From the NCBI GenBank assembly GCA_013178295.1, contig JABLWW010000014.1, positions 62,001-126,000 of the forward strand: 64,000 bases of DNA, given 5' to 3'. The position numbers and the translations under genes were made by a program. This document shows, piece by piece, positions 14,139 to 39,099 of the stretch. The notes under the pieces were generated by a model that made no database searches, had not been told where the DNA came from, and saw nothing but the letters and a program-made list of their open reading frames with translations. The stretch is from Anaerolineae bacterium. Lineage in GTDB: Bacteria; Chloroflexota; Anaerolineae; Anaerolineales; Anaerolineaceae. Position 1 is the first letter of the stretch; each line of letters opens with the position of its first letter.

Positions 14139-14190
14139 GCAGGGCGGTTTTTGCAGGAGCATAAGAGAAAAAGGAGCAAGCAGAAAGAAT

Positions 14191-15780: not shown

Positions 15781-15786
15781 AAAGCG

Positions 15787-16782: not shown

Positions 16783-16803
16783 GCGAGAGATGGAGTGGAG
16801 CGC

Positions 16804-17808: not shown

Positions 17809-17937
17809 AGATTTCTATACAAGTTGACGTTCTAGTGTGGAAGCATAAAGGAGGTGATTGGAAGCAAAGCAGAGTTGTCAAACATCAGTGCGTTTTTGCA
17901 AACAAAACATTTTTGTATGTTCAAAGGAGAAAAGAAA

Positions 17938-24418: not shown

Positions 24419-24486
24419 GTCTCTTTCCTGGTATTCCCGTCTTGTATATCAGGAAGTGAATCCGCGCGTGTTTATCTCTGTTTTCT

Positions 24487-24495
24487 TTTATACCA
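24487..24495 (-). promoter_or_regulatory. Possible extended -10 promoter of the GH3-araC operon
   Basis: On the minus strand TGGTATAAA fits an extended -10 element (TGnTATAAA) about 70 bp before the GH3 start. No clear -35 is visible. The rest of the 338-bp divergent gap (24419-24756) is AT-rich and contains no gene; a gaggaggcgat-like site sits at 24672. Confidence 0.35.
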
Positions 24496-24756
24496 TCAAA
24501 CCCCCCGCGCGTATGATCCGCTGCGGCGGAATCAGAAGAATTGTTATAAGACGCATAAAAAATGTTAGTCCAGGCGGTGATAAATCTTTTATGATATGTA
24601 GTGTGGGAAAGAAAATTTTATGCGGCGCAGGGCTTGATCTTTGAGATGCGCCATTCAGCTTGACAGTGTGAGAGGAGGCGATGCCAGTTCGGTTGATATT
24701 TTTTTGCTGACCCTGTTCGCATCTATTCACCCAAATTTTTAGATTAAGGAAAAGAG

Positions 24757-26223
24757 ATGAAAAGAAGAATCAATGTTTTGATGAGCGTGTGTCTTTTTGT
24801 AACGCTGGCGGTGTCGCTGGCGGCTTGCGGCGCTCCGGCAGCGCCCACAGCCGAAGCCCCTCAGGCGCCCGCTGCGCCTGCCGAACCCGCCGCGCCTGCT
24901 GCTCCCGCTGAGCCTGCCGCGCCAGCCGCCCCTGCCGAGCCAACCGCTCCAGCTGAGCCAGCGCAGGAAACCGACTTTATCTCGTGGTATCAATATGACC
25001 AGAACAACGAAGACCCCGCCAGTGATGAGCGCGTCGGCAATGCCTATCTGCGCAAGACCATCCCGGAATTCAACGCCGCCTTTGAAGGCAAATGGAACTG
25101 GGTGAACATCCCCAAAGCCTTTGACAAGCTCTACACCGAGCTGGTGGCGGCTTCGATCTCCGGCGGGGATGTGCCCGATGTCTTTGAGAGCGGCGCTTCG
25201 AACCTCAACTTGATGTACAACAATGGGGTTGCCATGGACCTGACCGACTGGGCGAAGCAGCAGCCGTGGTACAACGATCTCGACCCGCATGCCGTCCAGG
25301 CATGTATGCGCGATGGCAAGCTGTACTGCATCCCCTTTGCACAGCGCCCGTTTGTTACCTTTGTTTGGGCAGACCGCTTCCCGGCGGGGTATCCTGCCAC
25401 CACCGATGAATTCCTCAAGGAATCCGAGCGGCTCAAAAAGGAAGGGCTGTATTCCATGACGCTGTTCGGCTCGACGGCGTTTGACGGTGCGGCGGTCTAC
25501 CGCGGTTACTTCACCATTATCAACTCATTTGGCGGCTCCTACGATGACGGTGAGGGCAACCTGCGGCTGAATACCCCCGAGAATGTCGCCGCGATTGAAT
25601 TTATCCGCGAGCTGGTTAACAAGCAGTATATGCCCGAAATCATCTTTGCCGGTGGTTTCCAGGAAGAAGAAGCCTTCAAGGATGCTTCAGCCGCTTCGAT
25701 CCCGACCGGCATCTTTGGCTACCGCTACATCAACCCGCTCACCGCACCCAGCGGCAAGAAGTATGATAAGGGCAACGAAAATGATATGCTGGATGCCATT
25801 GAAGCCGGTGATGTGATCATCTCGCCCTCGTTTGCGGCGCCTGGCAAAGTCCCCGGCTGCAACAATGATGTTTCCGCACTGGCGATCCCGGTGGGCGCCA
25901 AGCACCCCGAAGCCGCATACGACTATATCAACTGGCTGATGGATCCGACCCGCAATGCCGAGTTCGTCTTTGGCCCCGGCGCCGGCATCCCGGTGCTGAA
26001 GAGCGCTATGTCTGACCCCAAGTTCCAGACCGCCTTCTATCAGCAAGCCGCCAAAGCGGTGGAAAAAAGCGCCTGCACCCCGTGGTTTGGATCGCTGGAG
26101 CGTCCCGAGGAGGCGGGTGTGCTGATCGTCAACGCCATCTACAAACTGGTGAAGGAAGATCCCACAGCCGATATTGCCACAGTACTCACACAGGCAGAAA
26201 AAGAGTACAATACCAATAACTGA
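24757..26223 (+). CDS. CUT1 sugar ABC transporter substrate-binding lipoprotein
   Basis: A 488-residue family 1 solute-binding lipoprotein. Lipobox SLAAC gives a lipidated C24, followed by an Ala/Pro/Glu spacer to about residue 70. The binding domain runs from TDFISWYQYDQNNEDP and includes YRGYFTIINSFGGS and YDYINWLMDPTRNAEF, typical of the class. It is divergent from the GH3-araC operon and is followed, after a terminator-like hairpin, by two permease genes. It probably binds the oligosaccharide cleaved by the GH3 enzyme. Confidence 0.93.
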   Translation: MKRRINVLMSVCLFVTLAVSLAACGAPAAPTAEAPQAPAAPAEPAAPAAPAEPAAPAAPAEPTAPAEPAQETDFISWYQYDQNNEDPASDERVGNAYLRKTIPEFNAAFEGKWNWVNIPKAFDKLYTELVAASISGGDVPDVFESGASNLNLMYNNGVAMDLTDWAKQQPWYNDLDPHAVQACMRDGKLYCIPFAQRPFVTFVWADRFPAGYPATTDEFLKESERLKKEGLYSMTLFGSTAFDGAAVYRGYFTIINSFGGSYDDGEGNLRLNTPENVAAIEFIRELVNKQYMPEIIFAGGFQEEEAFKDASAASIPTGIFGYRYINPLTAPSGKKYDKGNENDMLDAIEAGDVIISPSFAAPGKVPGCNNDVSALAIPVGAKHPEAAYDYINWLMDPTRNAEFVFGPGAGIPVLKSAMSDPKFQTAFYQQAAKAVEKSACTPWFGSLERPEEAGVLIVNAIYKLVKEDPTADIATVLTQAEKEYNTNN

Positions 26224-26265
26224 TCCTCCTCTTTTGCGAACCGACACGGATCAGCTATGTAGGAT

Positions 26266-26323
26266 GCTGCAGGGTGAAAAGTGTACCGAGATGGATCAAG
26301 CTTTTCACCTTGCAGCGCTTTTT
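26266..26323 (+). terminator. Attenuating hairpin between binding protein and permease genes
   Basis: The stem gctgcagggtgaaaag / cttttcaccttgcagc (16 bp with one G-T pair) is followed by GCTTTTTCTT. It looks like an intrinsic terminator placed inside the importer operon. Partial read-through would give much more binding protein than permease. The remaining sequence to 26422 holds no gene. Confidence 0.8.
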
Positions 26324-26422
26324 CTTCCTTTTGGTGCCGGTTAAGGGTCTCATTTAAACAACTGGGGTTAATATTTAATCGGGTTATCGGATTTTGATTG
26401 TGATAGAAAGGCGGGCTGTTGC

Positions 26423-27352
26423 ATGATAAGACAGGCAAACTACCGTCTGCGCAGGAGTTATCCCTTTTGGCTGCTGCTGCCCACGCTGGTGATTCTGCTG
26501 GTGGTGCAGGTCTACCCGGCGCTGTATACCGTTTGGCTGAGCCTGCAGGAGCGCAAGGGCAGTGGCTGGGTTTTTGTGGGGATTGACAACTATAAAAAGC
26601 TGCTCGGATCAGCCATTTTTAGTGAAAGTGTGGGGCACACGGTGATTTTTCTGGTGGGCTACACCGCGCTGACGCTCGCCGTGGGTTTTGGTGTGGCGCT
26701 GCTGCTCAAAAATACCACGCTTTTTTCCGGTGCTTATATCACCATTCTTTTCATTCCGTGGATCATTGCCGATATTGTGGTTGGGCTGGTGTTCCGTCTG
26801 CTGGTGGTGCCCGATTATGGCTTGCTTTCGGGCATTTTGCAGAACCCGGCGCTGTTTCCGCCTGCGGGGCTTTCGGTGCTGACGGCAAACCGCCCTGACC
26901 CGTGGTATGGTGAGTTTCCCTTTCCGCCTTCTCCGGCGATGGTGTTTCTGATTATCGCCGCGGCGTGGCGGGCGTTACCCTTTGTTACCCTGCTGATCCT
27001 GGCGGCGCTGCAAACGGTGCCCAAAGAAGTGCTGGAGAGCGCCCAGATTGACGGCGCCAGCCGCTGGCAGAGCATCCGCCATATTACCATCCCGCTGATT
27101 ATGCCTGCGATGGTGGTGGCGCTCTTTAATTTAATTCTAGGCGGGATGAACGGCGTCGGGATGGTCTTCAGTCTGACGGGAGGCGGTCCGGGCACCTCAA
27201 CCTATATCCTCAGCTATCTGCTGTATTCGATCGGCTGGTCGCGCCTGCAGTTTGGGCGGGCAGCAGCTTTGGCGCTGATCATTGCGGTGGTCAACTGGCT
27301 TTTGATTGTGGGGGTGCTGCGTATCACCCGTGTAAACGAAAGGAGCCGCTGA
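26423..27352 (+). CDS. CUT1 sugar ABC transporter permease (MalF-type)
   Basis: A 309-residue permease with six predicted helices, beginning PFWLLLPTLVILLVVQVYPA. The EAA loop is EVLESAQIDGASRWQSIRHI. GAAAGG precedes the ATG. Its stop is separated from the next permease start by a single nucleotide, so the two are translationally coupled. No dedicated ATPase gene is present in this operon either. Confidence 0.93.
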   Translation: MIRQANYRLRRSYPFWLLLPTLVILLVVQVYPALYTVWLSLQERKGSGWVFVGIDNYKKLLGSAIFSESVGHTVIFLVGYTALTLAVGFGVALLLKNTTLFSGAYITILFIPWIIADIVVGLVFRLLVVPDYGLLSGILQNPALFPPAGLSVLTANRPDPWYGEFPFPPSPAMVFLIIAAAWRALPFVTLLILAALQTVPKEVLESAQIDGASRWQSIRHITIPLIMPAMVVALFNLILGGMNGVGMVFSLTGGGPGTSTYILSYLLYSIGWSRLQFGRAAALALIIAVVNWLLIVGVLRITRVNERSR

Positions 27353-27353
27353 G

Positions 27354-28292
27354 ATGTCTTCTCCTGCGATTGGCAACCGAAAAAAATGGGGTCTTTTTCT
27401 GACCAATCTCCTGCTGGTGCTGGCGTGTTTGGTCGCCATTCTGCCCATTGCCACCACCGTGATTATCTCATTCAAGAAGCAAGCCGATATTACCCGCAAC
27501 CCGCCGGTGCTCTTCCCGTGCGATACGCCGCAGAAGCGCTTTGATTTGAGCGCCTGCCGCTGGGCAACGGAGGGGTATCAGCGCGTGTTTGCCCCCAAAC
27601 CGTCCGAAAGTTCGCCGCTGGGGTTTGTCCTGACGGGCAAGCTGGTGCGCATTTATATCCCCAATACACTGCTGTATGCCGTCTCGACTGCTCTGCTGGT
27701 GATGATTGCTGCCAGCCTGGCGGGATTTGTGTTTTCGCGCTATCACTTTCGCGGGCACAATGCCCTCATGGCGGCGATTATGGCGGTGACCGGCGTGCCG
27801 CTGTTGACCAATCTGCTGGCGCTGTATCAGATGGGCATCTCGCTGCGCAAAAATTTTCCCTTCTACGATGACCGCGTCTTTCTGATTTTTGTGTATGTGG
27901 GCTTCTTTTTGCCCATCAGCGTGTGGATTGTCAAGGGGTTTTTTGATGCCATCCCGCGCGAACTGGAAGAGGCGGCAATGATCGAGGGCTGCACCCCGCT
28001 GGGGGCGCTGTTCCGCATCACTGTGCCGCTGGCGCTGCCGGGCATGGCTTCGGTGTTTCTGCTGACCTTTGTCAATGTGTGGAATGAGTTTATCGTGGCG
28101 TATCTGCTGGTGAGCAAGAATGAACTGAAGCCAGCCATGTTTGGGCTGTATGATTTTCTCAGCCAGAACATCATCAATTTGCAGGTGATTGCCGCGGCGT
28201 GTATCATCATTGCGCTGCCGATGGTGGTGCTGTTTCTGTTTGCGCGCAATGCCTTTCTCAAGGCGATGGTGGAGGGCGCTGTCAAAGGGTGA
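27354..28292 (+). CDS. CUT1 sugar ABC transporter permease (MalG-type)
   Basis: A 312-residue permease, partner of the gene at 26423. The EAA loop is ELEEAAMIEGCTPLGALFRI. Between the first and second helices lies an unusual extracytoplasmic insertion of about 60 residues (roughly 40-100) with two cysteines in the segment FPCDTPQKRFDLSACRW, which could form a disulfide. The gene ends the importer operon. Confidence 0.92.
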   Translation: MSSPAIGNRKKWGLFLTNLLLVLACLVAILPIATTVIISFKKQADITRNPPVLFPCDTPQKRFDLSACRWATEGYQRVFAPKPSESSPLGFVLTGKLVRIYIPNTLLYAVSTALLVMIAASLAGFVFSRYHFRGHNALMAAIMAVTGVPLLTNLLALYQMGISLRKNFPFYDDRVFLIFVYVGFFLPISVWIVKGFFDAIPRELEEAAMIEGCTPLGALFRITVPLALPGMASVFLLTFVNVWNEFIVAYLLVSKNELKPAMFGLYDFLSQNIINLQVIAAACIIIALPMVVLFLFARNAFLKAMVEGAVKG

Positions 28293-28303
28293 TGGGGCAA
28301 ACC

Positions 28304-28325
28304 GATGGGGCAAGCCCCATCCTAC
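28304..28325. repeat. Short piece of dispersed repeat family 1
   Basis: Contains the inverted-repeat core gatggggcaagccccatcc found in the larger copies at 797-979 and 7671-7846. It is the only repeat part present in this 57-bp gap. Confidence 0.6.
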
Positions 28326-28337
28326 AGGCGGGCATAG

Positions 28338-28343
28338 TATAAT
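28338..28343 (+). promoter_or_regulatory. -10 element placed for a leaderless mRNA
   Basis: TATAAT ends 6 nt before the GTG start at 28350, so transcription would begin at or next to the start codon. No matching -35 is visible at 17 bp. Confidence 0.45.
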
Positions 28344-28349
28344 AGGGGG

Positions 28350-29243
28350 GTGAGCGCCAACATCCGCAAAGGGTATCCCATTGCCGTGCTTGCCACCACC
28401 TTTTTGGCAACGACGGCGATTTTCATCGGCTATCTGACGCGCACGGTGGGGATGGCGGCACTGCTGATGGCGCTGTGGCGCAACATTGGGATTGTGCTTC
28501 TGCTGCTGGTGGGGCTTGCCCTGATCAGCCGCCGTTTGCTGCGGCTGGGGCGGGCAAATGTGCGCTTCTTTTTGCTGTTTGGGCTGGTGCTGGCGCTGTT
28601 CAACAGCGCCTGGGCGTTTTCGGTGCTGCTCAACGGGGCGGCGGCAGCCACCGTGCTGGCGTATGGCGCCACGGCATTCACCGTGCTGCTGGAGCGCCTG
28701 CTGTTTGGCGAGCGGCTGCGGCTGACGCGCCTGGCGGCGGTGGCGCTCAGCCTAACGGGTGTGCTGCTGGTGGCGCGGGCGTATGACGCCTCTGCCTGGC
28801 GGCTGAACGGGTGGGGCATCTTTGCCGGGCTGGGGGTGGCGCTGTTGTATGCGGTCTATAACCTGATGGGCAAGGAGACAGCGCGGCGCGGCATCAGCTC
28901 GTGGACGGCGCAGCTGTATTCGTTTGGGCTGGCGGGGGGATATCTGCTGCTTGCCAACCTGGTGCTGGGCGGCGGGGCGGGCGGTGGTTTGCTGCCGCGC
29001 ATCCCGCTGACGGGCTGGCTGGCGCTGGGCGGGCTGGCAACGGCCAGCGTGCTGGGATATGGGCTGTATGTGCTTTCGATGAAATATCTGGCAGCCAGCG
29101 TCTCAAACCTGATTGCCACGCTCGAGCCGGTGATCACCGCCCTGTTGGCGTATGTGATCCTGGGCGAGCGGCTGCTGGGGGCGCAGATTGTTGGGGCGGC
29201 GCTGATCGTCGCCGGGCTGCTGCTGGCGCGGCTGGGCGAGTAG
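28350..29243 (+). CDS. EamA/DMT family transporter
   Basis: A 297-residue integral membrane protein with two EamA repeats of five helices each, the standard ten-helix drug/metabolite transporter plan. The N-terminal repeat starts at GYPIAVLATTFLATTAIFIG and the second near GWGIFAGLGVALLYAVYNLMGK. The conserved Glu near the repeat end is present (LEPVITALLAYVILGERLLGAQ). The start is a GTG directly after a TATAAT box, suggesting a leaderless message. It is probably an exporter of an amino acid or metabolite; the substrate is unknown. It ends right before the direct repeat at 29248. Confidence 0.9.
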   Translation: MSANIRKGYPIAVLATTFLATTAIFIGYLTRTVGMAALLMALWRNIGIVLLLLVGLALISRRLLRLGRANVRFFLLFGLVLALFNSAWAFSVLLNGAAAATVLAYGATAFTVLLERLLFGERLRLTRLAAVALSLTGVLLVARAYDASAWRLNGWGIFAGLGVALLYAVYNLMGKETARRGISSWTAQLYSFGLAGGYLLLANLVLGGGAGGGLLPRIPLTGWLALGGLATASVLGYGLYVLSMKYLAASVSNLIATLEPVITALLAYVILGERLLGAQIVGAALIVAGLLLARLGE

Positions 29244-29321: not shown

Positions 29322-30941
29322 TTAGGTTTTCTTCTGTCGAGAGCGCGGATGGGGAATTGCCACCTGAAGGAGGGTTCCGCTGCCATTGCAGTTCTGAATG
29401 CTCAGATGCCCGCCTAGCAACGCTACCCTTTCAGTGATTCCCAGCAGACCGTAATGTTCCTTTGCTGCCATCGTGGAAAGGTCAAAATCCGCTGGCAGGC
29501 CTACGCCGTCGTCCGCAACAGAGAGCAGAATGGTGCGCGGTGTGGAATGTTTGAGGCTGATCCGAACATGTTGCGCGTTAGCGTGTTTTTCGATGTTCCT
29601 CAAGCTTTCTTGAATGATGCGGAAGATGGAAAGTTCGGTGGCTTCGGGTAGCCGGATGAGGCGCGGGTCAATGTTCAGTTCAACGGGAATGTTGGTTCTC
29701 TCTTTCCAACCATCAACAAAGGAGGTGATGGCTGAACCCAGCCCTAAACTATCAATTGTCGGTGGGCGCAGATTGCTACATATCTGCCGCAGTCCTTCCA
29801 CCAGTTTACGAATATCGTAGCGGATAAAGCGCAGGGATTCTCGAATTTTAGCAGGGGTTTTTTCGTTCTGCTCAATCCGCTCCAATTGGTAATTGAGCCG
29901 CAGCAGGTCTTGTATGCTCTGGTCATGCAGCTCCCTTGCCAGCGATTTGCGCTCGTCCTCGCGGTTGGAGAGCAAACGACGGTGCGCATCCTGAAGCGCC
30001 TGATTGGCTTTGTTCAGCGCCAACACCTGTTCGTTGAGCTGTTTGAGGAGCTGTTTGTTCAAGGAGTCTTGAGCGGCTAGGTCTCTTTCGAGCAGAATCT
30101 GGTTGTGGCGCAGAATTTCTGCCCGTTCACGTGCCCGATAGTAGCTGTCTAGTGCCCAAATCAGCGGGGTGATTTGCTGCTGGTCAGTGGTGCCAACCAG
30201 ATCGGCTACCAGGGTCTCGCGGTTGACTTCGTCCGTTCTGTAAGTCGCCACCAGACATCCCTCGCGTAGTACAAGGATGCGGTCAGTAACTGTAAAGAGA
30301 TGGTCGAGATTGTTGCTGCTAAAGATGACAGCTTTTCCCTCCCTCTGCCACTGCTGAATGAGCGTCAGCAGCCTTTGCTGATAGTGAAACCCAAGCAGGG
30401 CAGCGGTGTCGTCCACTAGAATCATGCGCGCTGGTTTGATCATTGCGCGGGCAATGGCAATCAGCTGGCGGTACTCGATGGAAAGGGTATTGATGTTGTC
30501 GTGCAGCGATGGCAGCGAAACATCCAGCTGGCTGAGCACCTCGCTGGCAATCTCGTCCATCTTCTTTTGCGGAGAGATGAGCCTTTTGCCCTTCCACTGT
30601 GGGAAGCCAAGCTCATTGCCCAAAAAAATGTTGGCACAAATGTCGAGATCTTCCACAATGCGCGGCTCCTGGTGGATAACCTCGAACCCAAAACTGCGCG
30701 AGTTAAAGGGCCAGCGCAGCCGTTTGCCGTCAAAGCGCATCTCGCCCTGATCAGGGAAGTGAATGCCAGCCAGGATAGAAGCCAAAACTGACTTTCCTGC
30801 GCCGCCCCATCCAGCAAGCCCCACCACCTCACCGGCAAAGACTTCAAAGCTGATATCTTTGAGAACCAGCAAAGGGCCTAGATGTTTGGTCAGTCTGCTG
30901 ACCTTTAACAGAGGTACATCGTCATCAAGAAAGGGACACAT
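29322..30941 (-). CDS. Sugar-ABC-type ATPase domain fused to a NarL/LiaS-type sensor histidine kinase
   Basis: About 539 residues, cytosolic, no membrane helices. Residues 10-250 form one ABC domain like the first half of RbsA-type ATPases: Walker A GWGGAGKS (44-51), Q-loop EVIHQEP, NIFLGNE, signature LSIEYRQ (153-159). The Walker B reads MILVDDTAAL, not DEPTAAL, and the switch histidine is Asn (FSSNNLD, N210), so hydrolysis should be weak or absent. Residues 260-325 form a coiled coil. A HisKA_3 dimerisation helix carries H339 in SLARELHDQSIQDL, and an HATPase domain has ESLRNIEKHA, VADDGVG and GLLGITERV. The ATG at 30941 overlaps the regulator stop by 17 nt; an upstream TTG at 30974 is possible. 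Its partner is surely the response regulator encoded just upstream. The ATPase part is most likely a sensor of transporter state or sugar flux. Confidence 0.9.
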   Translation of the reverse strand: MCPFLDDDVPLLKVSRLTKHLGPLLVLKDISFEVFAGEVVGLAGWGGAGKSVLASILAGIHFPDQGEMRFDGKRLRWPFNSRSFGFEVIHQEPRIVEDLDICANIFLGNELGFPQWKGKRLISPQKKMDEIASEVLSQLDVSLPSLHDNINTLSIEYRQLIAIARAMIKPARMILVDDTAALLGFHYQQRLLTLIQQWQREGKAVIFSSNNLDHLFTVTDRILVLREGCLVATYRTDEVNRETLVADLVGTTDQQQITPLIWALDSYYRARERAEILRHNQILLERDLAAQDSLNKQLLKQLNEQVLALNKANQALQDAHRRLLSNREDERKSLARELHDQSIQDLLRLNYQLERIEQNEKTPAKIRESLRFIRYDIRKLVEGLRQICSNLRPPTIDSLGLGSAITSFVDGWKERTNIPVELNIDPRLIRLPEATELSIFRIIQESLRNIEKHANAQHVRISLKHSTPRTILLSVADDGVGLPADFDLSTMAAKEHYGLLGITERVALLGGHLSIQNCNGSGTLLQVAIPHPRSRQKKT

Positions 30942-31980
30942 CCGCAATAATTTGTCGTAAGGAAGCAATATCAATATCCTTTTTATCCAAAAAAGCTATT
31001 GCCCCAGCTTCAGTACTCATGCGGTGGAATTCTTTATCGGGGTAAGCGCTGATGACTACAATTTTGAGGTTGGCGTCCTTCTTGCGTAGCAACTTGGCAC
31101 ACTGGATGCCGTCTTCTTTACCCAAAATGACATCTACAAGAACTAAATTGGGCGAGATATGCTCGATCAGATGCACGGCTTCGCATGTATTTTCTGCCTC
31201 ATAAACCATTGTCTTGGGAGAGACGATGTTGATCGTTTGACGCAGTTCGTAGCGGAAGCGGGCGTTGTCATCTACCAGTAGAATGGATGTCATTGATTGC
31301 ACAGTAAAATTAACCTTCTCCGTTTCTATGTTTGCTTGTGGGGACGCCGCGCTGAGGATTTCGGGGTGTTGTAGGGCAAAATTGACCGCTTCCAAGCGGC
31401 TCTGCACGTTCAACAGGCGGTAGAGCTTGGTGAGGCAGTTCTCTACTGTCTTGACGCTAATCCCCATTTTGAGGGCAATGTTGCGGTTATCCAACGATTG
31501 CATCAGCAGTTGCAGCAGACTGCTTTGACGCGCGGTGAGCACGATAGGGGGCTTTTTGCGTTCGTCCGGATGGAGCAGCTTGTTGACCAGCGGGCTGGCG
31601 ATCCACTTCTCGCCGCTCAGCACCTGATCGACCGCCATTTTGAGTTGAGGAATGGGCTGACCTTTGAGATGGTATCCATCGGCGCCAGCCGATAGCAGCC
31701 CCTTGACGTAGAAATCATCGTCGTAGGCGCTGATGACCAGAATTTTCAGGTTGGGGTAAGCGGCTTTGATCTTACCCAATGAGGAAACTGGTTCAAAGGC
31801 GGGCATGGTAACATCCAGTAAGAGCAGACTCGGCGCTGTTTCTGCCAGCTGAGCAAACAACGAGGGACCATCCCATGCTTCGCCCACGATGAGCATGTCC
31901 TCGTATTGCTCCAAAATGTCGCGGATGCCCTGCCGTACCAGGCTGTGATCATCAGCGATTAATATCCTCGTGGAAGGCAT
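30925..31980 (-). CDS. Response regulator with REC-LuxR HTH-REC architecture
   Basis: A 351-residue cytosolic regulator. REC1 (1-125) has D10/D11, phosphoacceptor D56 (LLLLDVTMP) and K106. A NarL/LuxR-type HTH follows (147-205: LTARQSSLLQLLMQSLDN, then MGISVKTVENCLTKLYRLL). A linker leads to a second complete receiver (231-351) with VDDN, D283 (LVLVDVILG) and K333 (FLDKKD). NarL-family regulators normally stop after the HTH, so the C-terminal receiver is unusual. It is the first gene of a two-gene operon with the ATPase-kinase, whose start it overlaps. It is divergent from the GH35-CUT2 operon, its most likely target. The -10 lies 6 nt before the ATG with no ribosome binding site, so the mRNA is probably leaderless. 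Confidence 0.92.
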   Translation of the reverse strand: MPSTRILIADDHSLVRQGIRDILEQYEDMLIVGEAWDGPSLFAQLAETAPSLLLLDVTMPAFEPVSSLGKIKAAYPNLKILVISAYDDDFYVKGLLSAGADGYHLKGQPIPQLKMAVDQVLSGEKWIASPLVNKLLHPDERKKPPIVLTARQSSLLQLLMQSLDNRNIALKMGISVKTVENCLTKLYRLLNVQSRLEAVNFALQHPEILSAASPQANIETEKVNFTVQSMTSILLVDDNARFRYELRQTINIVSPKTMVYEAENTCEAVHLIEHISPNLVLVDVILGKEDGIQCAKLLRKKDANLKIVVISAYPDKEFHRMSTEAGAIAFLDKKDIDIASLRQIIADVSLS

Positions 31981-31986
31981 ACTTTC

Positions 31987-31995
31987 ATTTTAACA
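31987..31995 (-). promoter_or_regulatory. Extended -10 promoter for a leaderless regulator-kinase mRNA
   Basis: On the minus strand TGTTAAAAT is an extended -10 (TGnTAAAAT) followed by 6 nt and the ATG of the response regulator. The remaining divergent region to 32182 is C/G-run-rich (ccccta...ggggaggggg) and shows no further gene. Confidence 0.5.
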
Positions 31996-32182
31996 CATCT
32001 TCGTTGTGATACGGATGGGGGTTTTCCCCTATCCCCAAAGAGGGAATTTTCTAGCTGGGGAGGGGGTTATTCTCTACACTGTGGGGAGGGAGAAATATGT
32101 TACATTGTCTTTTAAACTCTGCGGCACAGCTCTCAGCAAACAACAGTCACGTCTTTTATTTCTTTTTCACAGGAGGTTATCT

Positions 32183-34285
32183 ATGCCGGGTCGTTTACCT
32201 ATACTGGTTGGGGATCACCAGTTCCGAATTAATGGAGAGGAGGTTCCCGTTTACAGCGGCGCTGTTCACTATTGGCGGCTGGAGCGCGACAAATGGGATG
32301 ACATCCTCGAAAAGGTCAAAGGGATGGGATTCAACACTATCACCTCATATATCCCATGGGAGGTGCACGAAATCCGTCGCGGTGAGTTTGATTTTGGCCA
32401 AATCAACCCAAGCAATGATATTGATGCTTTTATAACGCTGGTCGAATCGAAGGGTATGAGGATGATTGTCCGCCCGGGTCCGCAAATCAATTCCGAGTTG
32501 ACTTGGTTTGGCTATCCGCGGCGCATTTTGGAAGATCCTGAGCTTCAGGCAAAGACTGCTATGGGCAGTAAAGCCATTCTGACCCAAGTGCCCAAGCCCA
32601 TCCCGGCACTGAACTACGCCTGCGACAAATTCTTCGAGGAGACTGCTATCTGGTTTGATGCCATTATGCCCATTTTGGCGAAACATGCTTATCCAAAGGG
32701 TAATTTGGTTGCTGTTCAGGTGGATAACGAGATGGCTTTCTTTTTTCACATCAACCCGTATGAATGCGACTTCAGTGCTGATGCCATCCGCAACTATCAG
32801 AAGTTTCTGCAGCAAAAGTACGGCAGTCTGGACGAACTCAATTCGGTGTACCGTTGCGGGTATGCTAGTTTTGAAGAGGTGCAGCCCCCCAAGCGGTTTG
32901 AGGGCGAGAAAAAGGAAGACATTCCCTACTATACTGACTGGATCGAATACCGCGAGCGTTATCTGGTCGATTCGCTCTCGCGCCTGGCAGATATGATGCG
33001 AGCGCGCGGGTTGGAAAATATTCCTCTCTTCCACAATTACCCCCATCCGCTGGGCCCAGGTGGCGCTGCTAGCGGGATCACCACTCCCTTTAACCTGCTT
33101 GCACTGGAGGATAAGCTGAATTTTGTCGGTTTTGATATTTATTCGCGCCGTGAGCTATACGAGCATGTCAAGACGGTGGTTTCATACGTGGTGGGTACCA
33201 GTCGCTTTCCCTTTATCCCTGAGTTTATTGCCGGTGTCTGGCCATGGTATCTCAACCCCGGTGGATTTGAAGATGAGGAATTTGTTACGAAGGCAGCGCT
33301 CATGAACGGAATCAAAGGCTCCAGCCGTTACATGATTGTGGAGCGCAACCGCTGGCTGGCTTCGCCTGTTCGCCGTGATGGGCGTGTGCGCCCCGATAAC
33401 TACAATATGTTCAAGCGTGTCAATCAGATGGCGTTGGAAAATGCCTTTGTCGGCAATGAGCGTGTGGCGGATGTGTTGCTGCTTGCCAATCGTGAGTATG
33501 ACCGTCTGGAAGCCGCCAGCGTCCTGGTGACCTTCCCTGGTGATTTTCTGGAGGTGCTGTTTGGCTTTTCGGAATATCCCAACTATATGACTGTCTCCGA
33601 AAAGACGCTTGGCTTCTCCGAGGCAGTACAGGTGCAAAAATCCAACTGGTTCTCTCAAAGCTACAAGACCCTTACCGAAAGCGGCTATCAGTTCCTCATC
33701 AGCGATACTGATCTGCCGCTGGAGAGGTTAAAACGATACAAAGCGCTGGTGCTTGGTTCGTTTGAGTACATGAACACCGCTTTGCAGAAAAAGCTGGTTC
33801 AATTTGCAGAGGAGGGCGGCGCCGTGTTGCTTGGGCCGCGAATCCCTACGCTGAACGAGCGCATGCACAAAGACCTGACCCTGATGACGCATCTGGTTGC
33901 CGCTAACAAGCGCCTTCTCGTGCAAGATGGGGTGGAGCTTGCCCATATCTATCAGATTGGGAAAGGCTGTGTGATGGTGCTCCAGAGTCTTGACCTCCTT
34001 CCCAAAGCGCTTCCGGCGGCTTTGGACAGACTAGAACTGTCCCGTGTTGTTAAAAGCGACCCGCGATTGGATGTAACCATTCACAAATCTCCCAAGAAGC
34101 CGGATAAGATGGTGGTATTTGTGTGTAATCCTACTGCTAGCCCCATTGAAGCCGAGATTGATCTCAAGATAAAAGTCAAAACCATTCGCGAAATTTGGGA
34201 AGACCGCTTGGTCAGACATACCACAGGGACGTTTTCTGAATCCCTGCCGGCACACAAGATTATGGTTTATGAATGCACTTTGTAA
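32183..34285 (+). CDS. GH35-like beta-galactosidase (clan GH-A)
   Basis: A 700-residue, apparently cytosolic glycosidase. The N-terminus is GH35-like: VYSGAVHYWRLERDKWDDIL, then MGFNTITSYIPWEVHEIRRG and the RPGPQINSEL segment. The acid/base Glu is E183 in VQVDNEMAFF, where GH35 usually has ENEYG. The nucleophile is probably E347 in FIPEFIAGVWPW. The C-terminal half carries a beta-galactosidase trimerisation-like region (ALVLGSFEYMN, GGAVLLGPRIP) as in GH42. ATG 32183 has AGGAGG 8 nt upstream. It heads the operon with the unknown protein and CUT2 importer and is divergent from the two-component genes. It likely cleaves a beta-galactoside or related glycoside. Confidence 0.85.
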   Translation: MPGRLPILVGDHQFRINGEEVPVYSGAVHYWRLERDKWDDILEKVKGMGFNTITSYIPWEVHEIRRGEFDFGQINPSNDIDAFITLVESKGMRMIVRPGPQINSELTWFGYPRRILEDPELQAKTAMGSKAILTQVPKPIPALNYACDKFFEETAIWFDAIMPILAKHAYPKGNLVAVQVDNEMAFFFHINPYECDFSADAIRNYQKFLQQKYGSLDELNSVYRCGYASFEEVQPPKRFEGEKKEDIPYYTDWIEYRERYLVDSLSRLADMMRARGLENIPLFHNYPHPLGPGGAASGITTPFNLLALEDKLNFVGFDIYSRRELYEHVKTVVSYVVGTSRFPFIPEFIAGVWPWYLNPGGFEDEEFVTKAALMNGIKGSSRYMIVERNRWLASPVRRDGRVRPDNYNMFKRVNQMALENAFVGNERVADVLLLANREYDRLEAASVLVTFPGDFLEVLFGFSEYPNYMTVSEKTLGFSEAVQVQKSNWFSQSYKTLTESGYQFLISDTDLPLERLKRYKALVLGSFEYMNTALQKKLVQFAEEGGAVLLGPRIPTLNERMHKDLTLMTHLVAANKRLLVQDGVELAHIYQIGKGCVMVLQSLDLLPKALPAALDRLELSRVVKSDPRLDVTIHKSPKKPDKMVVFVCNPTASPIEAEIDLKIKVKTIREIWEDRLVRHTTGTFSESLPAHKIMVYECTL

Positions 34286-34305: not shown

Positions 34306-35112
34306 ATGTTACACGAAAACCCCCTGATGGCAGATATTGATGTTGATCATTGGAGAAATATGCAGCAGTTGCTGTTGGAATCATCCAAAACCAAGCGCAG
34401 AATTATCATTATTCATGAACAGGGCGAGATTCTGAAGTTTATCCATTCACAACGGCTGGAGATTGTCAAGCGTGTTGAGCGTGTGGATGATCCGCAAAAG
34501 ACTGCTGAAAAGGTGTATAAAGATAATGCCGCCATTACCGATTTTGTGATGGTGCTAGAGCGCAAAAGTGTTGAGCGCTACTTTGCCAAAGTTCAAGATT
34601 CGTGGACAGCCGCAGAGGATCTGGATGTCTATGTTCACCGCATGTTTGCCATGCTGGATGAGTACCCCGATGGCATTGTTACCTACCCGGGGCGCGCCCG
34701 TGTCAATCTCGGTTTACAGTGGCGGGTGGGTGCCAAGTACGAAAGCGTCCAAGAAGCCGTGCGCAGATTTGTCCCACCGCAGAGCACTGTCTTCTTTGGC
34801 ATTTTTGAGGGCAATCGCCTTTGGGCAAGCCTGTTGCTGGGTTTTGACGCCGAGAGGAAGATTGACATCATCACCACCGCCGATCCCAGCGAGCTTTCTC
34901 TAACGGGAGACTGGCAAGAGCAGTCGAAACAGTTGGTCGAGTGGGTCAACAAAAAATACCCACGCTGTGCGATTGGCGTCTTCACCAGTCTTGAGGATGC
35001 TAAACGCATTCTGAAAGATGAGGAGAAAATGAAACGGATTGCTGAAGCGCGCCAACGGGGCGGTCTGTTGATTGATCCACTGCCAGCAGTGCTGAGCGAG
35101 GCGCTGGGCTGA
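34306..35112 (+). CDS. Conserved-looking protein of unknown function
   Basis: 268 residues, no signal peptide and no membrane helix. I do not recognise the family. It looks alpha/beta: an N-terminal strand-helix unit (RRIIIIHEQGEILKFIHS), a charged helical stretch (50-110), and a C-terminal half with STVFFGIFEGNRLWASLLLGF and CAIGVFTSLEDAKRIL. A possible start is ATG 34306 after GAGGAGG. It lies 20 bp after the glycosidase gene and about 100 bp before the CUT2 binding protein. It belongs to the putative ATPase-kinase system block and has no counterpart in the other three importer operons of this window, which makes it a candidate accessory component. Confidence 0.75.
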   Translation: MLHENPLMADIDVDHWRNMQQLLLESSKTKRRIIIIHEQGEILKFIHSQRLEIVKRVERVDDPQKTAEKVYKDNAAITDFVMVLERKSVERYFAKVQDSWTAAEDLDVYVHRMFAMLDEYPDGIVTYPGRARVNLGLQWRVGAKYESVQEAVRRFVPPQSTVFFGIFEGNRLWASLLLGFDAERKIDIITTADPSELSLTGDWQEQSKQLVEWVNKKYPRCAIGVFTSLEDAKRILKDEEKMKRIAEARQRGGLLIDPLPAVLSEALG

Positions 35113-35180: not shown

Positions 35181-35212
35181 AAATATACATAGTGAAGAAA
35201 GGAGAAATTGAG

Positions 35213-36490
35213 ATGAAAAGTAGATGGTTTTATATTGTGTTAGGTTTGACTTTGGTCTTGGGCTTGATGGGGACGGGTTGCACGCCTGCCCCCGCTGCCC
35301 CGCCAGCAGAGGCCCCCGCTGCTCCGCCAGCAGAAGCCCCCGCTGCCCCGCCTACCGAGGCGCCTGCTGCTCCGCCAGCAGAAGCCCCCGCTGCCCCGCC
35401 TACCGAGGCGCCTGCTGCTCCGCCAGCAGAAGCCCCTGCCGCTTTTGACCCTGTTGCCGCTCTGTCAGCGCTCGAAGGGCAAGTCTTTTCCACCGGGCCG
35501 CGCGGCGAGACCCCCACGGCTGCCAGCGAGGTAGCCCTCTCGGAGGAGGATCTGGCAAAAATCAAGGAAATGAAAGCCAAAGCCGCTATTGTCCTGCACT
35601 ACGCCGGCAATGACTGGTCCAGCGCTCAGGTGGCAGGGCTGAAAAGTCAGTTTGAGAAAATGGGAGTAGAAGTAGTGGCCGTAACTGATGCCGGCTTCAA
35701 GCCTGAAAAACAGGTGTCAGATATTGAGACTGTTCTGGCAATGAAACCCAACATCATCGTTTCTATTCCTACCGACCCGGTCGCGACGGCTTCCGCCTAT
35801 AAGAGCGCTGCGGACGCCGGCGTTAAGTTGGTCTTTATGGATAACGTTCCCAATGAAGTAGAGCAAGGCAAGGATTATGTCAGTGTCGTCTCTGCCGATA
35901 ATTATGGCAACGGCATTGCCGCGGCACATCTGATGGCGAAGAGCATCAACGGTGAAGGAAAAATTGGCGTGATCTATCACGAAGCTGATTTCTTTGTTAC
36001 CAAGCAGCGCTATCAGGCGTTCACCAAAACCATCAAAGATAATTACCCTGCTATCGAAATTGTCGAGGAGCAGGGCATCACCGGGCCAGATTTTGCTGGC
36101 GATGCGGAGAAAGCCGCCTCGGCGATGATGACTAAGCACTCCGACCTAAAGGGCATTTGGGCGGTTTGGGATGTGCCTGCTGAGGGGGTGATGGCGGCTG
36201 CCCGCGCCATGGGGCGCGATAAGGATTTGGTCATTACCACCATTGACCTTGGCTTGAACGTGGCGGTGGAAATTGCTAAAGATGGCATGGTCAAAGGGCT
36301 TGGCGCGCAGCGTCCGTTTGATCAGGGTGTTACCGAAGCTATATTGGCAGGCTACGGGCTGTTGGGTAAGGAAGCCCCTGCCTATGTGGCGCTGTACATG
36401 CTCCCAGTGGATAAGAACAACGTTCTGGAAGCGTGGAAGACGGTCTATCATTCCGATCCTCCTGCTGACCTTGTCAATGCGGCAAAGTGA
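35213..36490 (+). CDS. CUT2 sugar ABC transporter substrate-binding lipoprotein
   Basis: A 425-residue RbsB-type lipoprotein. The lipobox MGTGC gives C23; the spacer to about residue 80 consists of repeats of APAAPPAE and APAAPPTE encoded by a 48-bp tandem repeat. The ligand-binding domain starts near residue 120 (KAAIVLHYAGNDWSSAQVAG) and shows VSIPTDPVATASAYKSAADAG and FMDNVP. ATG 35213 has AAAGGAG upstream; a GTG at 35192 is in frame but precedes that site. It delivers substrate to the importer encoded at 36587 and 38092. Confidence 0.92.
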   Translation: MKSRWFYIVLGLTLVLGLMGTGCTPAPAAPPAEAPAAPPAEAPAAPPTEAPAAPPAEAPAAPPTEAPAAPPAEAPAAFDPVAALSALEGQVFSTGPRGETPTAASEVALSEEDLAKIKEMKAKAAIVLHYAGNDWSSAQVAGLKSQFEKMGVEVVAVTDAGFKPEKQVSDIETVLAMKPNIIVSIPTDPVATASAYKSAADAGVKLVFMDNVPNEVEQGKDYVSVVSADNYGNGIAAAHLMAKSINGEGKIGVIYHEADFFVTKQRYQAFTKTIKDNYPAIEIVEEQGITGPDFAGDAEKAASAMMTKHSDLKGIWAVWDVPAEGVMAAARAMGRDKDLVITTIDLGLNVAVEIAKDGMVKGLGAQRPFDQGVTEAILAGYGLLGKEAPAYVALYMLPVDKNNVLEAWKTVYHSDPPADLVNAAK

Positions 36491-36586
36491 TTTTTTTTGA
36501 CAGGCTCTGTTTCTCCCCGGCGGGGCAACCCGCTGGGGAGAACGACCGGTGTATTCCCAGATAGGTGTGGAAAGGTTCCCAACAAG

Positions 36587-38095
36587 ATGAGACCGATTGT
36601 CGCCGCTATGCGGGGAATCGTTAAAGAGTTTAATCATATTCGAGTGCTGGATCAGGTACATTTTGAACTGCAGCAGGGTGAGATTCATGCTTTGCTCGGG
36701 GAAAATGGAGCAGGCAAATCAACCCTGATGAAGATATTGCGAGGTGTTTATTACCCCGAAGAAGGCGAAATTTTGATTGGAGGAAAGCCCGTGCGGTTGC
36801 GTTCGGCGCAAGATGCGCGCGCCAACGGGGTTGCAATGGTCTTTCAGGAATTTAGTCTGGTGCCTTCTTTGACAGTCGCCCAAAATATCTTTCTGACACG
36901 CGAATCGCGCAGCCGATTGGGGCTGATTGACGACCGTCGCGATAAAAAAAGAGCGACAGCGTTGCTACGGGAAATGGGGGTGGAGTTGGATCCGGGACTG
37001 CGGGTGGAACAATTGAGCACGGGCTATCGCCAGCTCACCGAGATTGTTGCCGCTCTCTCACAGGATGCGCAGATTCTTATCCTTGATGAACCGACTGCTT
37101 CCTTGACCCATACTGAAACGATGGCGCTTTTCAGCCTTTTGCGCAGACTCAGGGAGCGCGGTATCTCCATCATTTATATCTCGCACCGTATGGAAGAGGT
37201 CTTTCAGATTGCGGACCGCGTAACTGTGTTGCGGGATGGTAAAAATATTATTACCGAAGATATCCAAAACTTAACCATTCAACAGGTCATTGAGTATATT
37301 CTTGGACGCAAGGCAAACGACGAAGTCCCTCGCTCTGCATTCCAGCATGAGCCCGGCTACGTTCCTTTGCTTGAGGTAGTGCGTATGAACTGCGGCAGGG
37401 GTGTGCGGGATGTCAGCTTTCGTCTATATTCTGGTGAAGTGCTGGGCATTGCCGGGTTGATGGGTAGTGGCAGAACTGAACTGGCTCAAACGCTGTTTGG
37501 CATTACCCCGCCGCAGTCGGGTGAGATCTACGTGCGGGGAAAGAGAGTTGTCATTGCCAGTCCCGAAGACAGCATGAGGGCGCGCATGGCGTTTATTCCC
37601 GAAGACCGGCGTCAGCAAGGGTTAATTACCATGCATACCATCAAGGATAATTTTGAGCTTCCATTGGTGGTTTTAGGCAGATTGGCAAAGCGAAAAATAT
37701 GGGTGGATGACCGTCGCTCTGCTAGCCTTGCCGAGACCTACGTACAGCAGCTCAAGGTGCGCACTGATTCAATCTACAAAGAAGTGCGTTTGCTCTCGGG
37801 AGGCAACCAGCAAAAAATTGTTATCGCCAAGTGGCTCAGTACCGACCCCGATATTCTCATTATGGATGAGCCAACTGCTGGTGTGGATATTGGTACGAAA
37901 ACGGAGATCCTGGAGTGTGTACGGCAATTGGCAAATAAAGGCAAGGGCGTGCTCATCATCTCTTCTGAATTGCAGGAACTGCTCGCGGTCAGCGATCGTA
38001 TAATTATCCTCAAAGAGGGCAGCATCGTGCAGGAAATGCAGCGCAGTGACATTCAAAGCGAACAGCAACTACATCATATTCTTCAGGGAGCGTGA
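36587..38095 (+). CDS. CUT2 sugar ABC transporter ATPase (RbsA/XylG type, tandem domains)
   Basis: A 502-residue tandem ATPase. The first domain has Walker A GENGAGKST (38-46), VFQEFSLVP, signature LSTGYRQLTEIVAAL and Walker B LILDEPTASL with switch ISHRMEE, all intact. The second has GLMGSGRTE and LSGGNQQK with IMDEPTAGVD. The start at ATG 36587 has AAAGG 11 nt upstream; the open frame begins at 36497 inside intergenic sequence. It overlaps the permease start by 4 nt (GTGA). Its first domain is the closest relative in this window of the sensor ATPase domain at 29322, especially around GYRQ versus EYRQ. Confidence 0.94.
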   Translation: MRPIVAAMRGIVKEFNHIRVLDQVHFELQQGEIHALLGENGAGKSTLMKILRGVYYPEEGEILIGGKPVRLRSAQDARANGVAMVFQEFSLVPSLTVAQNIFLTRESRSRLGLIDDRRDKKRATALLREMGVELDPGLRVEQLSTGYRQLTEIVAALSQDAQILILDEPTASLTHTETMALFSLLRRLRERGISIIYISHRMEEVFQIADRVTVLRDGKNIITEDIQNLTIQQVIEYILGRKANDEVPRSAFQHEPGYVPLLEVVRMNCGRGVRDVSFRLYSGEVLGIAGLMGSGRTELAQTLFGITPPQSGEIYVRGKRVVIASPEDSMRARMAFIPEDRRQQGLITMHTIKDNFELPLVVLGRLAKRKIWVDDRRSASLAETYVQQLKVRTDSIYKEVRLLSGGNQQKIVIAKWLSTDPDILIMDEPTAGVDIGTKTEILECVRQLANKGKGVLIISSELQELLAVSDRIIILKEGSIVQEMQRSDIQSEQQLHHILQGA

Positions 38096-39099
38096 AACCA
38101 GTGATTGAAAAAACTTCTTCCGACAACCATCCCCCTGTTTCCATTTCTGCCGCTTTTACTCATTTTTTCAGGCGGTTTTATTGGCGGGATTACGTTGTTT
38201 ATATGACCTTTGTAGTCATCTTTGCCATCTTTGCGGTGGCGTTGTATCCCAGTGGCTTTCTCAATCCCAACAATCTGCTCAATATTTTGAGACAAACCGC
38301 TACCATCTCGGTGATGGCAGTGGCAATGACCTTTGTACTGGCGGCGGCAGAGATTGACCTTTCGGTTGGTGCGGTGGCGGGTTTGGCTTCGGTAGTCACC
38401 GCAATGAGCATTGCCAGGTATGGTATTGTTGCTGGCGTTGTGGCGGGTTTGACCACAGGGCTTTTGGTGGGGTTGATAAATGGTTTTTTGGCAACTCGCA
38501 TTGGTATCCCCTCGTTTTTGGTAACATTGGGAATGCAAGGGATTGCGACTGGCACCGCCATGTGGGTAACACAAACTGCCCCTATCCCCATTGCTAACCA
38601 AATGTACACCTACATCTTTGGCTCCGGAAACGTTGGCCCCATCCCAACTTTGTTTATCTGGACTCTGGCAGTTTTCCTAACGGGGCATTTATGTCTCAAA
38701 GCAACACCGTTTGGACGCCAGGTACTCGCCACTGGCGGCAACGAGACAGCGGCAAGGTACAGTGGCATCAACACCAAAAAGATCAAGTACATTACCTTTG
38801 TGGTCATGAGCATGATTGCTGCTCTGGCAGGGATGCTATATGCTGGACGTCTCCATTCGGGGCGATTTCAGTGGGGGCAGGGGGATGAGCTATCGGTGAT
38901 TGCGGCGGTGGTTTTGGGGGGTACCAGTCTGTTTGGCGGGAAAGGATCTGTAATTGGCACCATCATCGGAGCAATTTTGATTGGTCTGATCAACAATGGT
39001 CTGATACTGATGGGTTTGGAAGCAAGCCAGCAGATGATTGTACGCGGCGCCATCATCATTTTTGCGGTGGCGCTGACCGGCAGAAAGGCGCAAAGCTAG
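38092..39099 (+). CDS. CUT2 sugar ABC transporter permease (RbsC type)
   Basis: A 335-residue membrane permease with about eight to ten helices. Family motifs are VMAVAMTFVLAAAEIDLSVGAV and AAVVLGGTSLFGGKGSVIGT. It starts at a GTG inside the ATPase stop. It is the only permease of this system, so the channel should be a homodimer. That leaves two identical docking sites, normally filled by the RbsA tandem ATPase. The sensor ATPase-kinase at 29322 could in principle compete for such a site. Confidence 0.93.
   Translation: MKPVIEKTSSDNHPPVSISAAFTHFFRRFYWRDYVVYMTFVVIFAIFAVALYPSGFLNPNNLLNILRQTATISVMAVAMTFVLAAAEIDLSVGAVAGLASVVTAMSIARYGIVAGVVAGLTTGLLVGLINGFLATRIGIPSFLVTLGMQGIATGTAMWVTQTAPIPIANQMYTYIFGSGNVGPIPTLFIWTLAVFLTGHLCLKATPFGRQVLATGGNETAARYSGINTKKIKYITFVVMSMIAALAGMLYAGRLHSGRFQWGQGDELSVIAAVVLGGTSLFGGKGSVIGTIIGAILIGLINNGLILMGLEASQQMIVRGAIIIFAVALTGRKAQS

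Follow-up and report, generated by a model that had tools for sequence, protein, structure and literature searches.

What does a two-component system respond to when its kinase carries the motor domain of a sugar importer in place of a conventional sensor, and what is its regulator doing with two receivers? The question is raised by a gene pair in a 64,000-nucleotide stretch of DNA (the window: positions 62,001-126,000 of contig JABLWW010000014.1, assembly GCA_013178295.1) from an Anaerolineae bacterium. The pair consists of a response regulator (RR) with one receiver (REC) on either side of a LuxR-type helix-turn-helix (HTH), and an overlapping histidine kinase, here ABC-HK, that is fused to the nucleotide-binding domain (NBD) of an ATP-binding cassette (ABC) importer. 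We give a probability of about 0.55 to the reading that these genes form a transporter-coupled two-component sugar system, in which the kinase would read a permease through a catalytically disabled NBD and RR would control importer and glycosidase genes. To place the pair in context, we used a basic set of 101 related genomes, own genome included and several of them fragmented drafts, together with 80 named RR loci, the best 80 of 181 relatives in a scan of one genome per species across 84,980 species. Genes around these loci were labelled with profiles built from the first 27 neighbourhoods plus the window, which were in turn run on the 80 named loci; the two collections overlap, with several contigs common to both, while L049 and L098 are apparently one contig of 48,562 bases and L063 and L153 apparently one region.

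The kinase and its parts lie as follows.

29322..30941, minus strand: ABC-HK (P0002), importer NBD plus HisKA_3 histidine kinase, 539 amino acids (Pfam, relatives, AlphaFold2, Foldseek)
30189..30911, minus strand: pseudo-NBD, residues 12-252 of P0002, with Walker A GWGGAGKS kept and the signature reading LSIEYRQ
29955..30182, minus strand: predicted long helical linker, residues about 255-330 of P0002 (AlphaFold2 model)
29760..29954, minus strand: HisKA_3 dimerisation/phosphotransfer domain, residues 331-395 (Pfam; phospho-His H340 in an HDxxxQ pattern)
29349..29636, minus strand: HATPase_c kinase domain, residues 437-532 (Pfam; N450, D478 and G480 invariant, 23/23)

The ABC-HK gene is downstream of the RR gene and overlaps it by 17 nucleotides, the first ATG of the domain-bearing frame being at 30941. 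Pfam recognised ABC_tran, HisKA_3 and HATPase_c and no further domain, and the own genome holds one such fusion. A HisKA_3 domain with its phospho-His and a HATPase_c domain with N and G boxes identify the protein as a HisKA_3 histidine kinase, in which H340, D341, Q345, N450, D478 and G480 are all invariant across 23/23 ABC-HK rows. AlphaFold2 modelled the NBD, two long helices (255-291 and 295-358) and the kinase core with a mean predicted local distance difference test score (pLDDT) of 80.6 and a predicted template modelling score (pTM) of 0.51. The best sequence matches of the ABC part are the N-halves of AraG, YtfR and XylG, and those of the kinase part are MctS and UhpB, while Foldseek paired the NBD with MalK and other importer ATPases, so that by both fold and sequence this domain is related to the ABC importer ATPases of the CUT2 type.

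This kinship does not extend to the catalytic residues. We compared 55 ABC-HKs (the window's own plus the 54 that cleared a coverage filter among the 80 loci) with the NBDs of neighbouring importers, comprising 32 N-halves, 32 C-halves and 17 single domains. The ABC-HK NBDs keep the Walker A Lys (54/55), the Walker B Asp (54/55) and the Q-loop Gln (52/55). At signature position 4, however, 52/55 have Glu, where N-halves have Gly or Ala (32/32) and C-halves Gly (32/32); the catalytic Glu is present in 18/55 ABC-HKs versus 32/32 importer N-halves, and the switch His in 0/55 versus 32/32 N-halves and 16/17 single domains. In the window itself, Asp takes the catalytic Glu position and Asn the switch His position. 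Measured against the catalytic set of a CUT2 importer ATPase, the domain thus falls short, with Walker A alone in agreement. An ABC domain with such losses should bind ATP without hydrolysing it normally. In the midpoint-rooted NBD tree, all 55 ABC-HKs form one clade (0.986) that is sister (1.0) to nine single-domain importer ATPases, seven of them encoded next to permease genes at the loci studied here, and the simplest reading of this topology is that the sensor domain was derived from an importer motor. The C-halves of the two-domain importer ATPases in L074-L153 are degenerate in a way of their own, with the Walker A Lys replaced by Arg (31/32), the Q-loop Gln by Glu (31/32) and the switch His by Ser (32/32).

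The gene order around the kinase, together with the kinship of the permeases found there, is what we regard as the strongest hint that ABC-HK occupies the position of an ATPase. At 10/80 loci, a permease gene (alone, fused to a substrate-binding protein (SBP) or followed by an SBP gene) directly precedes ABC-HK with no ATPase gene in between. Six of these have the order RR, permease, ABC-HK (L076, L077, L078, L082, L087 and L091), and in four an SBP gene stands between permease and kinase (L092, L113, L151 and L153); gaps to ABC-HK are small (-4 in L077, -32 in L087 and 3 in L091). In L076 (2748-4865), permease and SBP are one 705-residue protein, BPD_transp_2 followed by Peripla_BP_4 in a Pfam run made on this locus only, and L078 (9476-11608) has an open reading frame (ORF) of like length; encoded directly upstream of ABC-HK, such a polypeptide is possibly a one-piece membrane receptor. 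Three loci of the first set (L039, L063 and L065) also have this kind of arrangement. When the permeases were placed in a tree, 12 of the 14 that precede a kinase, L124 included, fell into one clade (0.984) with one unlabelled member, those of L039 and L065 paired elsewhere, and the importer permeases lay outside both groups. At six further loci (L101, L102, L111, L126, L132 and L142), ABC-HK comes last, after the permease, in an operon that includes an ATPase.

These operons bear directly on the alternative explanation that survives best, namely that the ABC domain acts off the permease, as a cytosolic sensor of ATP and thus of energy state or as a dimerisation module, and that the linkage to importers merely reflects the regulon. 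The retained Walker A motif and Walker B Asp would suit such a role, as would the lack of any membrane part in ABC-HK and the many loci without a dedicated permease. A nucleotide sensor of this kind would nonetheless leave unexplained the permease-kinase operons without ATPase and the permease clade that accompanies the kinase, and it sits uneasily with the retained Q-loop Gln and with an origin inside an importer ATPase clade, and we consider it unlikely, if worth serious attention.

The surroundings of the pair are those of a sugar-uptake locus. In the window, RR and ABC-HK are divergent from an operon for an enzyme and an importer.

32183..34285, plus strand: GH35/GH42-type glycosidase, first gene of the divergent operon (Pfam; homologs in relatives)
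34306..35112, plus strand: 268-amino-acid protein with no Pfam match (gene order kept in relatives)
35192..36490, plus strand: sugar-binding protein, Peripla_BP_4 (Pfam)
36497..38095, plus strand: two-domain CUT2-type importer ATPase (Pfam)
38092..39099, plus strand: importer permease, BPD_transp_2 (Pfam)

The probable start of the glycosidase is the ATG at 32183, the listed ORF beginning at a GTG at 32006. The same gene set recurs in L049 and L061, and in L074, L075, L098 and L128 it is complete or cut by a contig end. Among the 26 loci flanked by 5 kb or more on each side, ABC-HK was found in 23, some part of an importer in 25, and at least two of the three kinds of importer gene in 24. None of the 13 other places in the own genome with a GerE domain is within 10 kb of a listed two-domain importer ATPase, compared with 5 kb at the RR locus, in a rough control made by eye from two tables. 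Across relatives that have the set, the 268-amino-acid protein (34306-35112) always lies between the GH35/42 enzyme and the SBP. The window also holds a second CUT2-type importer set (14044-19296; ATPase, two permease-like ORFs and a binding protein), and, at 22292-29243, a GH3-type glycosidase on the minus strand with an SBP_bac_8 and two BPD_transp_1 genes, no ATPase gene being directly beside that set, and then an EamA-like transporter. Near the pair in other loci are SBP ORFs of about 720-745 amino acids (L042:10447-12678, L052:4995-7166, L055:2837-5071 and L056:6444-8630), about double the usual length, which are perhaps duplicated or fused SBPs.

RR and ABC-HK also travel together. Full-length relatives of ABC-HK (680 bits or more) were found in 27/101 genomes and RR relatives (profile E <= 1e-60) likewise in 27/101, with both present in 25; G067 and G079 have RR without ABC-HK, G066 and G089 have ABC-HK without RR, and G012 carries both genes in two copies. 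Pairwise distances of the two proteins are correlated over 56 loci (r = 0.73, against at most 0.29 after label shuffling), to which shared genome ancestry contributes, and ABC-HK was seen in the retrieved DNA of 58/80 loci, twice as a cut copy. Of 400 genomes sampled from the phylum, 28 matched the RR profile too, and the titles of all 80 named RR relatives (the best 80 of 181) are Chloroflexota or groups recognised as part of that phylum (Anaerolineae, Caldilineaceae, Thermoflexia, Chloroflexales, Roseiflexaceae and others). By these searches, the system appears conserved and has so far been seen only in Chloroflexota.

The regulator itself is organised as follows.

30925..31980, minus strand: response regulator REC1-LuxR HTH-REC2, 351 amino acids (Pfam, homologs, AlphaFold2)
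31630..31965, minus strand: REC1, residues 6-117, phospho-acceptor D56 (Pfam and conservation)
31375..31542, minus strand: LuxR/GerE HTH, residues 147-202 (Pfam; mean column identity 0.74)
30928..31293, minus strand: REC2, residues 230-351, phospho-acceptor D283 (Pfam, sequence relatives and conservation)

The RR frame starts with ATG and has zero internal stops, and Pfam found two Response_reg domains and one GerE domain (residues 147-202) in it. The original prediction, that both receivers (D56 and K106 in REC1, D283 and K333 in REC2) and the HTH are complete, holds: REC1 has the acid pair D10/D11, D56, the switch Ser S84 and K106, REC2 has the acid pair D237/D238, D283, the switch Ser S311 and K333, and these are identical in 27/27 informative rows (K106 in 28/28) of an alignment of the window with 27 relatives, two of them cut. 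The architecture search that the prediction had called for found 26 loci in 25/101 genomes, own included, whose alignments span essentially residues 1-348 (46-52% identity at the 25 loci other than the own one), along with two cut copies: that of G079 begins at a contig edge and covers residues 88-348, and that of G032 is cut in REC1. The next-best matches align over essentially the REC-HTH part only (about residues 1-205), with identity of at most 39%. In the own genome, the long frame of L007 was considered as a second REC-HTH-REC protein and rejected, as it holds an ordinary REC-HTH regulator with extra upstream codons.

Mean column identity is 0.74 in the HTH, 0.69 in REC1, 0.66 in REC2 and lowest, at 0.31, in the linker around Met230. 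While the double-receiver architecture proposed from the window is real, intact and conserved, the accompanying suggestion that Met230 betrays the fusion of a once separate receiver gene did not hold up, since that Met exists but is not common to relatives and lies in the least conserved segment. AlphaFold2 modelled two confident receivers and an HTH (mean pLDDT 86.1), and with a pTM of 0.43 and a low-confidence linker (213-228) the mutual placement of the domains is not fixed by the model. The top Foldseek matches of the REC1-HTH part are LiaR, VraR, ChrA and RcsB. An N-terminal receiver with acid pair, Asp, Thr/Ser and Lys, followed by a GerE HTH, places RR with the NarL/LuxR-type regulators, which have one receiver; the second Response_reg stretch after the HTH makes it a variant of that type. 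The closest solved relative of REC2 by sequence is Spo0F. An origin of REC2 as a recent duplicate of REC1 is not favoured, the two being 28% identical when other receivers of the genome reach 31%, so REC2 may instead be another receiver that was captured.

A candidate binding site for this regulator emerged from the DNA between RR and the divergent gene. The dyad GGGG-N3-TCCC is present in 33/45 such intergenic regions, whereas the best word of eight dinucleotide shuffles reached 8-11, and a symmetric 16-bp matrix gave the NarL-like 7-2-7 motif TAGGGGA-WW-TCCCCTA. At least 12 bits are scored by 49/78 upstream regions (0 in mononucleotide shuffles), with sites mostly centred 40-75 bp upstream of RR. 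The matrix was trained on the same regions that it scored, and the dinucleotide-shuffle test and the sites in loci below 12 bits are less dependent on it, even if 3 of these 29 loci (L110, L097 and L105) had contributed a weak site to training: ten of the 29 have a site of at least 13 bits upstream of an SBP gene, and at four more the site lacks a labelled gene start within range. Over all 80 loci, 69 sites fall in the 64,118 bp upstream of RR and SBP genes versus 15 in the other 911,262 bp, and at least one operator-like site is present in 59/80 loci.

32016..32031, no strand: predicted operator, a 7-2-7 palindrome (TGGGGGTTTTCCCCTA; 20.7 bits) centred ~43 bp before the start of RR
32040..32047, no strand: imperfect third half-site, facing the divergent enzyme/importer operon

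Across the loci, a third half-site, TTTCCCC, recurs at a fixed distance from the palindrome (C in 40/44 non-redundant sites at the best column). Among 13 sites outside the training set, 9 score at least 5, compared with 0.9% of random positions; this check used 13 of 14 loci (L109, at a contig edge, was omitted) and allowed each site up to three alignment offsets, so that the level expected by chance is higher. The better-scoring side faces the SBP gene in 11/11 sites with an SBP on the contig, if weakly in some. For NarL, two inverted heptamers 2 bp apart are the preferred arrangement, as in the engineered test site TACCCCTAAAGGGGTA (PMC4549865), and the predicted operator has this 7-2-7 geometry with a different heptamer; that RR binds it is a prediction from placement. 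A scan of 31900..32250 for consensus promoters and terminators gave no match. In the own genome, GGGGAWWWCCCC with one mismatch occurs at 124 forward and 114 reverse places (control 44/40), a scan from which no regulon is named. Outside the window, a GGGGAATACCCC site at C6:144269-144280, with a CUT2-like ATPase match 53 bases further on, at C6:144333, is a possible second target of the regulator.

The original prediction offered REC2 as a phosphate sink, a dimer switch or a second input, roles that look alike by sequence. The three-half-site operator makes a role for REC2 in assembly on DNA somewhat more attractive, and judging from these sequence patterns we favour this role, with a phosphate sink and a second input also possible. 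As a sink or timer for REC1, REC2 would be appended to an otherwise ordinary NarL-type regulator, in keeping with its full set of phosphorylation residues (27/27 rows) and its flexible, poorly conserved tether. A pure sink, however, would not need a domain that is nearly as conserved as REC1 beyond the phospho-site (0.66 versus 0.69), and the third half-site points to something beyond a simple dimer; we think this role improbable. To a similar degree we doubt that REC2 receives phosphate from a second, unlinked kinase, with RR integrating two inputs: its Spo0F/CheY-like type, unlike REC1, and its 28% identity to REC1 would fit this idea, but no second kinase recurs nearby, with one further kinase match in 80 loci in a search that could find only kinases detectable with the ABC-HK profile.

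Several observations weigh against a transporter-coupled system with this operator. The window has no dedicated permease beside the pair, so that the permease of the importer would have to fill in, and contact between NBD and permease is what we infer from the fusion and the operons. ABC-HK is absent from the retrieved DNA of 22/80 loci, mostly at contig-end cuts, and L086, L112 and L131 lack it despite at least 5 kb on both sides. Fifteen of the 29 loci below 12 bits upstream of RR have no site anywhere in the retrieved DNA, and a strict motif search of the 101 genomes gave hits in 6/27 with RR versus 11/74 without, no separation, so that the operator argument rests on placement and not on genome-wide abundance.

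The motif could also belong to another regulator of sugar genes, since placement is what ties it to RR and it is missing from the retrieved DNA of 21/80 RR loci. Its position at both the RR and importer promoters of a conserved pair and its NarL-like 7-2-7 geometry speak for RR instead, and among the genes that recur around the pair we saw no other regulator, which leaves this option with a small share of the probability. The remaining concern, raised with the original prediction, that a missed frameshift or misassembly created a false double-receiver gene, is refuted by 26 full-length loci and 80 named loci from many separate assemblies, and with nothing found in its favour we give it virtually no weight.

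If the kinase is coupled to the transporter as we propose, signalling would begin when the sugar-binding protein hands its ligand to the CUT2-type permease. ABC-HK, soluble and expected to be a dimer, would dock on the cytoplasmic face of the permease through its importer-derived NBD, which would still bind ATP in the docked state without normal hydrolysis, and a conformational change of the importer or receptor, presumably driven by a sugar, would pass via the coiled coil to the kinase. Phosphotransfer to RR would occur most likely on REC1, REC1-driven dimers would bind the 7-2-7 palindrome, and REC2, also phosphorylatable, may set or gate a higher-order assembly occupying the third half-site. 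The output would probably be activation rather than repression, namely expression of the importer genes (in the window, of the glycosidase also), with autoregulation. A more specific version, in which the locus is a sensory ABC importer whose motor has become a dead NBD-kinase, SBP and permease serve as the sugar receptor, and REC2 controls an extra protomer on the three-half-site operator, seems to us plausible at slightly less than even odds; the disabled copy of an importer motor within the kinase suggests an importer turned into a receptor.

Parts of this system are familiar. The REC1-HTH part of RR aligns over its full length with solved NarL/LuxR-family members (VraR, LiaR, NarL and ChrA), to which RR adds a second complete receiver after the HTH, a different heptamer and a third fixed half-site. 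ABC-HK shares HisKA_3, HATPase_c and all motifs with HisKA_3 sensor kinases (MctS, UhpB and NarX matches), but has an importer NBD in place of their membrane or extracytoplasmic sensor. CUT2 importers, whose RbsA/AraG/XylG-type N-halves are the best match of the ABC part, also supply the neighbouring SBP, ATPase and permease, whereas the NBD of ABC-HK is single, kinase-fused and stripped of catalytic residues. In Bce modules (BceAB-BceS), an ABC transporter and a histidine kinase likewise form a sensory unit, yet they are separate membrane proteins that respond to antimicrobial peptides, whereas ABC-HK is soluble with the NBD in the kinase (PMC10314905). The membrane-embedded, intramembrane-sensing kinase and the adjacent transporter with a large extracytoplasmic loop that are described for the Bce type (PMC3023708) have no counterpart here, the kinase having ABC_tran, HisKA_3 and HATPase_c only and the permeases being BPD_transp_2. 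Transport modules have been reused as kinase sensors in Ks-Amt5 (PMC5764959) and in S-component/5TMR kinases (PMC11109136); there the kinase is joined to the membrane (substrate) part, in ABC-HK to the motor part. In the open literature, we found no relevant paper for the RR architecture, an ABC-NBD/kinase fusion or such a Chloroflexota system, and a description elsewhere is possible. We rate this sugar-linked Chloroflexota module as a variant of transporter-coupled two-component systems.

The main interest of the locus lies in the ABC-NBD kinase, the permease-kinase operons of its relatives and the operator, none of them noted in the original prediction. Nutrient transport is known to be coupled to gene control in a few transporter-kinase pairs. 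If the proposed coupling is true, a kinase that keeps the transporter's motor domain without its catalytic function would give a direct view of how importers become receptors, and the conformation of an importer would be readable as kinase activity. The double-receiver RR and its predicted operator, in turn, offer a concrete handle on the function of a second receiver.

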